From Candidatus Calescibacterium sp. (GTDB lineage: Bacteria > DRYD01): a stretch of 64,000 nt of DNA. Below the pieces are notes generated by a model, which saw nothing but the letters and a program-made list of their open reading frames with translations, was not told the DNA's origin and did not search any database. Made by a program: the position numbers and the translations under genes. Location of the stretch: positions 1-64,000 of the forward strand of contig JANXBF010000002.1 of the NCBI GenBank assembly GCA_025057615.1, written 5' to 3'. Of the stretch, positions 9,225-11,840 are shown in pieces; position 1 is the first letter of the stretch, and every line of letters begins with the position of its first letter.

Positions 9225-9713
9225 ATGGAGAATTTGTATAGGTTGATAGATAAACTTGAAGCCAATTTGAGAAGATCCAGATTGTTTGGTTTATCTTTTG
9301 TTAAATCCAAAGAAAGTATTTCCATTATAAACAAAATAAGACAAATATTGGCTGAAAGTTATACTCCAACAGAAGAATTAATAAGGTTAAGAAAGGAACT
9401 CGAATCAAAAGAAAGAGAACTTAATGATATTAAAAATAATATTATTGAAAATGAGGAAATAGTAAAAATGGCTTATCTAAAAGCACAAGAAATAGAGAAA
9501 AATGCAAAAGAGGAAGCCCAAATATTGATAAATAACGCAGAGAAATATGCTCTTAGAGTATTAGATCATTTTGAGGAAGAACTTAAAAAATTGGTATCTA
9601 CAGTTCAACAAAGTAAAAAAAATATTGAAACAGAAATACAAGCCGAAACCAATAAGGTTGGTGCTAAGAAAGCCGATCAAGAGTTAAAGAAAGTTAATAT
9701 TAAGATCAAATAA
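9225..9713 (+). CDS. Coiled-coil protein, DivIVA/ATPase-subunit-like
   Basis: 162-aa, highly charged, mostly helical protein. The N-terminal pattern ENLYRLIDKLEANLRRSRLFG, followed by a IINKIRQILAESYTPTEELIRLRKE helix and a long Glu/Lys-rich coiled coil, matches the layout of a small conserved family in Firmicutes and Thermotogae often labelled 'ATPase' or DivIVA-domain protein. No nucleotide-binding motif exists here, so the label ATPase would be misleading. The helical part at residues ~70-150 resembles F- or V-type ATPase b/E stalk subunits only in composition. It is the last gene of the 7155-9713 operon. GGAGG is 8 bases before the ATG. Confidence 0.65.
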   Translation: MENLYRLIDKLEANLRRSRLFGLSFVKSKESISIINKIRQILAESYTPTEELIRLRKELESKERELNDIKNNIIENEEIVKMAYLKAQEIEKNAKEEAQILINNAEKYALRVLDHFEEELKKLVSTVQQSKKNIETEIQAETNKVGAKKADQELKKVNIKIK

Positions 9714-9721
9714 TTTTATTG

Positions 9722-9768
9722 CCGCTTAACTGGAGAGCGGTATATAAATCTCCAGTGAAAACAGGGAG
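9722..9768 (+). promoter_or_regulatory. Overlapping alternative hairpins upstream of the gene before glnA
   Basis: Two inverted repeats share bases. CCGCT (9722-9726) pairs with AGCGG (9736-9740), and ACTGGAGA (9729-9736) pairs perfectly with TCTCCAGT (9749-9756). The second arm's CTCC (9750-9753) is also complementary to GGAG in the ribosome binding site (gggagga, 9764-9770). The foldings exclude each other and one would cover the Shine-Dalgarno of the next gene, so a translational switch is plausible. The structure is seen; the function is inference. Confidence 0.45.
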
Positions 9769-9775
9769 GAAAAAT

Positions 9776-10489
9776 ATGAACCAGATAAATCTTGAATATA
9801 AAATGAAGGAAGGTCAAACTTATCTTTATGATGTTTATATCACTAATACAAAAATATTTAAAGAAGGAGATAAAGAAGAAAAGGAAACTGATGAAATAAA
9901 ACTGAAATTATCTCAAAAAGTTAGCAAAGTTTTGCCTAATCAAACATATGAATTGGAAGTAGAAATAGAACCAATAAGTTTTCTCAGAAATTCTAATCCC
10001 CAGGAGATACCTATTCCAACACAGACAATGAAGATGACAATGGATAGAAAAGGAAAAGTTTTGGCCAGTACTATGGATAGTCCTGTTAACTCCCCAACTT
10101 TTCCTGATAAACCCGTGTCCTTGGGAGAAACTTGGATATCTCCTGCAGAATTGAAATTACAGGACGGTGGAAATATAAAAATTAATTACTATTATACAGC
10201 TAAAAGTATAGAGAAATATAAGAATTACGAGACTGTTCTTATCGAGGTCAATAGTGATGAATGGTCCAATACTGCTCAAGATGTTACCCAATATCTTAAA
10301 TCTAAGGGAATGACTTTGTTTTCTGTAGAATACGGGGCTCTTATGAAATCAAAAGTTGAGACTGAAGTTAAAGCGAGTATAGAAAATGCTAATCAACATT
10401 TCATATCCATAGTTGAAGTTTTGGTTGAGCTTGATAAATTAACACAAAAAGATCTCACTGAAACCGATGAAGGATATATTATAAAATAA
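9776..10489 (+). CDS. Hypothetical protein with DUF6263-like pattern, upstream of glnA
   Basis: 237-aa protein without signal peptide. The track's TTG start at 9719 is rejected because GGGAGG is 6 bases before the ATG at 9776 (MNQINLEYK). The body has long beta-prone stretches, and the segments MTMDRKGKVLAS and FPDKPVSLGETWISP recall DUF6263-type proteins (MD..G.v ... P..pv..Gd.W). Those are normally exported, whereas this one has no export signal. The gene ends 19 bases before glnA and very likely shares its transcript. Its 5' leader carries the alternative hairpins described separately. Function unknown. Confidence 0.7.
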   Translation: MNQINLEYKMKEGQTYLYDVYITNTKIFKEGDKEEKETDEIKLKLSQKVSKVLPNQTYELEVEIEPISFLRNSNPQEIPIPTQTMKMTMDRKGKVLASTMDSPVNSPTFPDKPVSLGETWISPAELKLQDGGNIKINYYYTAKSIEKYKNYETVLIEVNSDEWSNTAQDVTQYLKSKGMTLFSVEYGALMKSKVETEVKASIENANQHFISIVEVLVELDKLTQKDLTETDEGYIIK

Positions 10490-10508: not shown

Positions 10509-11840
10509 ATGGTTAAAACGCAGGACGTTATTTCTATTTTGAAAGACCAAAAAGTTCAAAGTATAAGAATGATGTTTGTAGATATATTAGGAATTCCTAA
10601 AGGTGTACAAATCCCCGTTTCTCAAGCTAAAAAGATGCTTGATGGAGAAATACTATTTGATGGTTCTTCAATACAGGGATTCGTTAGAATTGAAGAATCA
10701 GATATGAAATTGGTCCCAGATCTCAATACTTTTGTTGTTGCTGACCTTAAAGGATACAACGAAGCCTTTGTTGTTTGTGATGTTTATTATCCAAATGGTA
10801 AGAGGTTTGAGGGTGATCCGAGATTTGTTCTTCAGAAAGTATTGGAAAAATCTAAAAAGATGGGATTTATTCCAATGGTTGGTGTTGAAGCCGAATTTTT
10901 CCTGTTTCCCATGAATACTGGTAAAGGATTTGCTAGTGCCCCTGTTTTAGAACATACGGATTCAGGTGGATATTTTGATATGTTGTATCTTGATTCAGCT
11001 GAGCAGGTTAAATTGGATATACTAAAAAAATTAGAGGAATTTGGTTTTGAGGTTGAAGCTCTACATCACGAAGTTGCCCCTTCACAACATGAAATAGATT
11101 TTAAATACAGCGATGCTTTGACTACAGCTGATAGATTGTTACTATTCAAAATAATTGTTAAAACAATAGCCCTAAGATATGGTTTGCATGCCACATTTTT
11201 ACCAAAACCAATAAAAGGTATAAACGGGTCTGGATTACATATGCATCAGTCTCTATTCAAAGGAGAAACTAATTCTTTCTATGATAATAGATCTTCAAAT
11301 GGTATTAGCGAAACGATGTTGAACTATATTGGAGGCATATTTAAACATGTCAAAAGTTTTACTGCAGTAACTAATCCTTTGGTTAATTCATATAAGAGAT
11401 TGGTTCCTGGTTATGAGGCTCCTGTATATATTTCTTGGGGAGAACATAATAGGAGTCCTCTAATAAGGATACCTGCCAAAAGAGGAAATTCTACAAGAAT
11501 AGAGCTAAGAAGTCCCGATCCTTCGTGTAATCCTTATCTTGCTTTCTCCGTAATAATTAACTCCGGACTTGATGGAATAAATAACAAATATCAACCTCCT
11601 AAACCAATTGATTTAAATGTATATGAATTGGATAATCAAACTATGAAAAAATATAAAATAGAGCAATTACCATCTAATCTATATGAAGCATTGATTGAAA
11701 TGCAAAAAGATAGCTTTATTAAAGAAACACTAGGGGAACATATATACTATAACTTTATAAACTCAAAAATGAAAGAATGGAAGGATTATTCCACTGAGGT
11801 AACAGATTGGGAACTACAAAAATACTTCAGTATATACTAA
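10509..11840 (+). CDS. glnA: Glutamine synthetase, type I
   Basis: Forms glutamine from glutamate, ammonia and ATP; dodecameric cytoplasmic enzyme. Motifs run in order: N-terminal VQSIRMMFVDILGIPKG, FDGSSIQGFVRIEESDM (latch region), VEAEFFLF, HHEVAPSQHEIDF, NGSGLHMHQSL, NPLVNSYKRLVPGYEAP (Asn/Arg substrate loop), and WGEHNRSPLIRIP with TRIELRSPDPSCNPYLA. The 443-aa length and the lack of the ~25-residue insert indicate the GSI-alpha group, so regulation by feedback inhibition or protein partners is more likely than adenylylation. AGAGGTG lies before the ATG. The preceding hypothetical gene is co-transcribed, and ispE follows after 15 bases. Confidence 0.97.
   Translation: MVKTQDVISILKDQKVQSIRMMFVDILGIPKGVQIPVSQAKKMLDGEILFDGSSIQGFVRIEESDMKLVPDLNTFVVADLKGYNEAFVVCDVYYPNGKRFEGDPRFVLQKVLEKSKKMGFIPMVGVEAEFFLFPMNTGKGFASAPVLEHTDSGGYFDMLYLDSAEQVKLDILKKLEEFGFEVEALHHEVAPSQHEIDFKYSDALTTADRLLLFKIIVKTIALRYGLHATFLPKPIKGINGSGLHMHQSLFKGETNSFYDNRSSNGISETMLNYIGGIFKHVKSFTAVTNPLVNSYKRLVPGYEAPVYISWGEHNRSPLIRIPAKRGNSTRIELRSPDPSCNPYLAFSVIINSGLDGINNKYQPPKPIDLNVYELDNQTMKKYKIEQLPSNLYEALIEMQKDSFIKETLGEHIYYNFINSKMKEWKDYSTEVTDWELQKYFSIY

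Follow-up and report, generated by a model that had tools for sequence, protein, structure and literature searches.

What is encoded by the short gap that separates a DivIVA-like gene from the operon carrying glnA? In the window analyzed here, a 64,000-nt stretch of DNA from Candidatus Calescibacterium sp., this gap holds two inverted repeats: CCGCT (9722-9726) with AGCGG (9736-9740), and ACTGGAGA (9729-9736) with TCTCCAGT (9749-9756). A preliminary description read them as mutually exclusive hairpins that might form a nitrogen-responsive switch and would then occlude the Shine-Dalgarno (SD) sequence of the glnA operon. The repeats are present, but they do not exclude each other; together they make up a single interlocked pseudoknot. 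The features of the region are as follows.

9225 to 9713, plus strand: upstream cistron, DivIVA-like, taken from the ORF list (Pfam DivIVA sub-threshold, E 3e-4)
9722 to 9726, plus strand: 5' strand of stem S1, CCGCT; C/C/G/C/Y is kept across 89 elements
9727 to 9728, plus strand: loop L1, TA; U is the first loop base in 66/89 elements
9729 to 9735, plus strand: 5' strand of stem S2 (S2a), ACTGGAG, complement of 9750-9756; hypervariable in the family, complementarity assessed by permutation test
9736 to 9740, plus strand: 3' strand of S1, AGCGG, partner of 9722-9726; compensated types occur at other sites
9741 to 9749, plus strand: A-rich third loop L3, TATATAAAT, also given as UAUAUAAAU; near-invariant across 89 elements
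9750 to 9756, plus strand: 3' strand of S2 (S2b), CTCCAGT, partner of 9729-9735; the relative G002 keeps TCCAGTT opposite AACTGGA
9764 to 9769, plus strand: Shine-Dalgarno sequence GGGAGG, SD duplex -10.6 kcal/mol
9776 to 10489, plus strand: downstream cistron, a 237-aa protein with its ATG at 9776, followed by glnA at 10509-11840

The Fold at the glnA Operon

The TAA stop codon of the DivIVA-like ORF (9711-9713) lies 8 nt 5' of S1. In the window copy the loop of S1 pairs with sequence 3' of S1, and the 5-bp S1 and 7-bp S2 cross with an L1 of 2 nt, an L2 of 0 nt and an L3 of 9 nt, which is a classical H-type pseudoknot. A9736 is the only base claimed by both stems, and the orthologous gap of G002 together with about 50 other sites retains both stems, interlocked and with compensatory changes; the two-hairpin model, in which only one stem can form at a time, was rejected on this ground. 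RNA folding finds the 65-nt gap more stable than 199/200 dinucleotide shuffles (z -3.6), and a rival nested fold of the window copy, built on an extended stem of UUUAUUG with UAUAUAAA, reaches -18.4 kcal/mol. A search of the plus strand from 9500 to 9776 turned up no site resembling a promoter or a terminator, which fits an operon-internal position, and the window copy lacks the stem followed by a U run of an intrinsic terminator or attenuator.

The orthologue of the downstream gene in G002 is 85% identical, and the gap before it reads CCGCT-AA-ACTGGA-AGCGG-TATAAAAG-TA-TCCAGT. At the same site in G001, G004 and G005 the gap is short and the element absent, its place being taken by purine-rich SDs (AAGGGAGG, AAAAGGAGG and AAGGGGG). 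The 237-aa protein (9776-10489) has no Pfam match; its homologues are restricted to this bacterial family among the 59 genomes searched, with distant paralogues within the same genomes.

A Family of Pseudoknots with a Hypervariable Stem

Queries with the 65-mer and gapped patterns brought up further copies in the same genomes, which are incomplete MAGs with computationally assigned gene starts. A covariance model built on S1 and L3 gave about 20 matches per genome in G000 to G005 and none in G006. The fetched loci comprised about 95 candidates, 89 of which have S1 and an S2 helix, and the family now numbers about 90 members at about 50 gene sites, found in all six family genomes examined at about 18-25 per 1.1 Mb. 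Its consensus is CCGCY-U-[S2a]-N(0-25)-RGCGG-[U/A]AUAUAAAU-N(0-3)-[S2b].

S1 and L3 are conserved in sequence, while S2, mostly 5-9 bp, is hypervariable yet complementary: 75 distinct S2a sequences occur in 89 elements. With one element taken per orthologous site (52) and each loop paired with the 3' flank of another element, the mean S2 score fell from 16.7 to 9.5 +/- 0.4, and 0/500 permutations reached the observed value (z about 19); S2 serves as a criterion for calling elements except in S2-blind tests. Covariation across related genomes, which the preliminary description had proposed as a check, is therefore clearly present. Within orthologous sites, changes on both sides of an S2 pair kept pairing in 9 cases and broke it in 4, against 2/20 in a shifted-partner control, the cells of this comparison not all being independent. 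Simple stacking sums prefer the knot over nested folds in 77/79 cases. S1 occurs as CCGCT/AGCGG, CCGCC/GGCGG, CTGCC/GGCAG, CCGCG/CGCGG and GCGCC/GGCGC, and in the G002 gaps before acetate-CoA ligase, rplL and a small ORF it has been rewritten with compensation (CTGCC/GGCAG, CCGCG/CGCGG and CTGCT/AGCAG). Since such rewriting occurs at orthologous sites, the identity of S1 is not absolute. The compensatory changes across the family bear out the proposal that a structure acting on the RNA strand is under selection before the ORF that precedes glnA. By these comparative criteria the element defines a new RNA family, about 90 members strong and unusually clear in its covariation, and would do so even if its function differs from the one proposed below.

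The same comparisons leave little of the proposed switch. In the window copy CTCC (9750-9753) is able to pair with the GGAG of GGGAGG (9764-9769), as had been suggested, the duplex of S2b with the leader amounting to about -6.4 kcal/mol, but it is weaker in the closest orthologue (-3.4), and across the family the pairing of S2b with the leader is no stronger than with permuted partners (-2.85 observed vs -2.75 +/- 0.18). Anti-SD switching was accordingly discarded as a conserved feature of the family. Nor is the element specific to nitrogen assimilation or to the glnA operon: it precedes many unrelated genes and is missing at this very site in three relatives. A switch made of two exclusive hairpins is contradicted by this pattern of conservation, its stems being compatible, its element generic and its SD pairing unconserved, and it is hardly credible. 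For the window copy only, the nested fold and the local CTCC:GGAG pairing may allow a secondary switching role.

Taxonomic Range

In the set examined the phylum is represented by only seven genomes, and the two genera are about 95% identical in 16S. A strict pattern gave 47 matches in the six family genomes and 0 in 380 others, with 0 in the reversed control. A scan across 84,980 species genomes yielded 42 stretches. About half come from five family MAGs (SKW172, ZGR_13 Tibet, SRR5214706_bin.133, RSWP7 and H1_Bin_METABAT_99), and all of these but one have S2. The remaining stretches are singletons of scattered phyla, mostly without S2; they are for that reason treated as chance, and a wider taxonomic range was rejected.

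Among viral contigs there were 33 pattern matches, of which four independent kinds, in one copy each, have an S2 helix score of at least 15 (L313:8802-8828, L316:3627-3654, L322:8917-8946, also L314/L315/L319); those on L313 and L316 directly follow a stop codon and precede an ATG. They could stem from phages of related hosts or be chance among the 33.

Rfam, searched at the gathering and at a relaxed threshold (E<=10) and also with 20 further loci, returned nothing convincing. The only pseudoknot match was to a viral UPD model, SBRMV1_UPD-PKf, at 16 bits vs a cut-off of 39. The glnA and Downstream-peptide glutamine riboswitch models gave no match, in agreement with the earlier statement that the element belongs to no recognized riboswitch class.

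Placement Between Cistrons

To map positions, genome stretches were joined into 1.13 Mb for G002 and 1.09 Mb for G004 and scanned. G002 contains 18 elements in its 1.13 Mb and 0 in the reversed sequence, and 18/18 have the sense orientation and are flanked on both sides by co-directional genes, an arrangement that holds for every mapped genus-1 copy; in genus 2, 4/26 scan matches have no called co-directional upstream gene. The last structured base stands 8-23 nt 5' of the AUG in most copies, whereas the distance from the upstream stop to S1 is far looser, from -45 to +88 nt, with many copies 0-8 nt past the stop. An accessory hairpin, present in about 18/88 elements, begins directly after S2b and ends 12-16 nt before the AUG; among comparable element-less genes, hairpins ending 11-15 nt before the AUG were seen in 3/208, one of these being a missed element.

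The genes downstream are mostly housekeeping genes, and no common pathway emerges among them. They encode ribosomal proteins S2 (rpsB), S4 (rpsD), L5 (rplE), L7/L12 (rplL), L17 (rplQ), L31 (rpmE) and L32 (rpmF), and include frr, tig, asnS, ssb and the genes for acyl carrier protein (acpP), GAPDH (gapA), malate dehydrogenase (mdh), pyruvate-phosphate dikinase, acetyl-CoA ligase, PRPP synthetase and ATP synthase delta, as well as jag, cutA, a pilT-like gene and csm2.

This placement bears on several readings of the element. A mobile or selfish intergenic repeat without host function would account for gain and loss at single sites between relatives and for a larger multi-copy repeat in G004. REP-like or mobile repeats are oriented independently of their flanking genes, which the uniform sense orientation in G002 is not, and neither the compensatory evolution of S2 nor the tight AUG spacing nor the SD trade-off described below would be expected of them; we regard this origin as very improbable. 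The intercistronic, strictly sense position before abundant proteins (L7/L12, acyl carrier protein, GAPDH) would also suit an mRNA processing or stability element, in which the knot blocks exonucleases or guides intercistronic cleavage and so sets differential transcript levels. Such an element, however, would have no need of tight AUG spacing combined with a loose distance to the upstream stop, and offers no reason for the SD trade-off, which makes it improbable.

About 9 copies of the larger repeat lie in 180-300 nt gaps of G004 (C37:12595, C26, three copies in C11, C4, C8, C2 and C43). It reads GTTAGCC-TAATA-CCGCC-TGCAGACC-ATA-GGGCTAAC..GGCGGAATACAAATAGGTCTGC, then CAAAAGTGTATA..TATACACTTTTG just 5' of the start codon. 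Its additional helix, GTTAGCC/GGGCTAAC, is interlaced with both S1 and S2, which makes a double pseudoknot, and stretches upstream are also partly conserved; five loci scanned against Rfam gave no match.

Exchange with the Shine-Dalgarno Sequence

Both genera carry a normal 16S anti-SD (GGATCACCTCCTTT). With starts defined by orthology and a strong SD defined as a duplex <= -6 kcal/mol, a strong SD is found in 20% of 44 element-bearing gene families vs 61% of element-less starts (n 342, p 1e-5); when the latter are confined to intergenic-like starts, the comparison becomes 20% vs 71% (p 8e-8). In 22 ortholog pairs (20 genes) the SD duplex averages -3.3 kcal/mol in the pseudoknot copy and -9.65 kcal/mol in the pseudoknot-less copy (Wilcoxon p 2e-4), and in 18/20 genes the stronger SD belongs to the pseudoknot-less copy. 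A cruder, unmatched test using first-ATG starts found no difference (p 0.55). The exchange can be read directly in the following leaders.

pilT-like: pseudoknot copy AATTGAAAATCCT; pseudoknot-less copy GTGGGAGGTAATT
cutA: pseudoknot copy CTTAAAAAAT; pseudoknot-less copy AAGGGGGTAAGTT
L5: pseudoknot copy AAGATAAAAAG; pseudoknot-less copy TGGAGGAGATTTT
ssb: pseudoknot copy ATTGAAGA; pseudoknot-less copy AGGGAGGATTTT

The missing SDs are not explained by lack of room, because genus-2 leaders, 18-21 nt long and nearly all A/U, have ample space. Presence of the element exchanges with an SD among orthologues, as an SD-independent initiation element should. The substitution is not absolute, since a strong SD is still present in the window copy and in about one in five of the others. 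The window copy belongs to the minority that combines the pseudoknot with a strong SD (GGGAGG), and here the knot would assist the SD instead of replacing it.

A trade-off of this kind might also result from a bound activator protein that drives initiation in place of the knot itself. More generally, some regulator acting in trans, either a protein or a small ligand, might bind the element and so switch the translation of a broad housekeeping regulon, with the start region exposed or shielded by the knot in the manner of preQ1-type riboswitches or ribosomal-protein leaders. S1 and L3 are conserved beyond the need for pairing, 8-23 nt separate the element from the AUG, and preQ1-I riboswitches use H-type pseudoknots with an A-rich L3 (PMC11625349). 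Yet the downstream genes share no pathway, the element is internal to operons and does not stand in the leaders of transcription units, the SD is mostly absent and not occluded, and pairing of S2b with the SD is not enriched; a regulator site is consequently unlikely.

A Proposed Role in Translation Initiation

The comparison shows the fold, its sense-strand position between cistrons, how closely its last structured base is spaced from the AUG, and that pseudoknot and SD replace each other among orthologues. When the SD exchange, the distance kept to the AUG and the position between cistrons are taken together, the element most likely acts in translation initiation, at the window site as well. 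We propose, with somewhat better than even confidence and from sequence comparison, that the intercistronic H-type pseudoknot represents an undescribed, family-restricted RNA class whose structure would signal translation initiation at the cistron downstream, replacing or supporting the SD.

In the proposed mechanism, S1 and L3 probably form minor-groove contacts that present a recognition face, as in preQ1-I (PMC11625349), and S2 would be a strut constrained in length and stability only, which would explain why its sequence drifts while its complementarity is kept. The S1/L3 face may have the 30S subunit, a ribosomal protein or an RNA-binding protein specific to the family as its docking partner, and docking would put the unstructured, A-rich start region into the mRNA channel. 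Docking through base-pairing with 16S rRNA was rejected, as the conserved strands have no 16S complement longer than 7 nt.

The element might also catch ribosomes fresh from termination upstream. As a specific form of the proposed initiation signal, and not an addition to it, the knot may be a termination-reinitiation bridge that compacts a gap of 45-100 nt. All 18 G002 elements follow a co-directional gene, and many copies begin just behind the upstream stop codon; since ordinary termination-reinitiation reaches no further than about 20 nt (PMC10666635), any coupling would require the knot to span the gap. The distance to the stop is variable, however, the preceding gene being far away from some copies, most of them in genus 2, and we hold this form to be not especially likely. 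In some copies (e.g. L023 and L054) the upstream frame appears to cross S1 and to end at the UAA inside L3 (UAUAUAAA), where terminating ribosomes would open the knot.

A more ambitious version of the initiation signal, which we advance tentatively and hold somewhat short of an even chance, is that the family constitutes a genome-wide, SD-independent ribosome landing pseudoknot for operon-internal genes. It would correspond, in bacteria, to a minimal intergenic IRES in which S2 is a sequence-free strut and S1/L3 the conserved recognition face.

Comparison with Known Systems

A close structural likeness is to the preQ1-I riboswitch (Rfam RF00522), likewise a small H-type pseudoknot near the downstream start region with an A-rich third loop facing stem 1, a feature that the family element shares (PMC11625349). 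The element differs in its hypervariable S2, in preceding dozens of unrelated genes and in having no SD inside the knot. The preQ1 covariance models of Rfam gave no match to the window copy at gathering or E<=10, and none in 20 further loci; no queuosine or preQ1 genes lie downstream of the elements, which instead precede housekeeping genes of many pathways.

Two further systems are bacterial pseudoknots close to a start codon. The autoregulatory pseudoknots of ribosomal proteins (for example S15/rpsO and S4/alpha operon) lie near the start codon, one per regulated operon, and are repressive. Like them, the family element is a pseudoknot by the start codon that would act on translation initiation; unlike them, it is found again and again, before about 50 unrelated genes, and appears to replace the SD. 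The repZ activator pseudoknot of IncI-alpha plasmids, just upstream of the start region, promotes translation of the downstream frame. The family element shares this position immediately 5' of the start region and differs in being recurrent, repZ being a single plasmid gene under antisense-RNA control that retains its SD and does not form a recurrent family.

Viral systems offer two further parallels. The calicivirus TURBS is a eukaryotic-virus signal that works by pairing with rRNA. It too is located at a stop/start junction, where it re-uses terminating ribosomes, but no rRNA pairing was found for the family element. Dicistrovirus-type intergenic IRESs are likewise structured intercistronic RNAs with pseudoknots that direct internal initiation, although they are much larger than the family element. 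The activity of a dicistrovirus IRES in E. coli came from protein S1 and an AG-rich, SD-like stretch and not from the pseudoknots, and these experiments argued against SD-free recruitment by the fold of such RNAs (PMC9458429); fold-dependent initiation in bacteria would for this reason be new. If the landing-pseudoknot proposal is correct, bacteria of one lineage have come to possess, beside the SD, a ribosome-binding signal based on structure, and evolution freely swaps the two at genes for abundant proteins (such as L7/L12, S2, L5 and acyl carrier protein); SD-free recruitment or recapture of the bacterial ribosome by a compact pseudoknot becomes directly testable.
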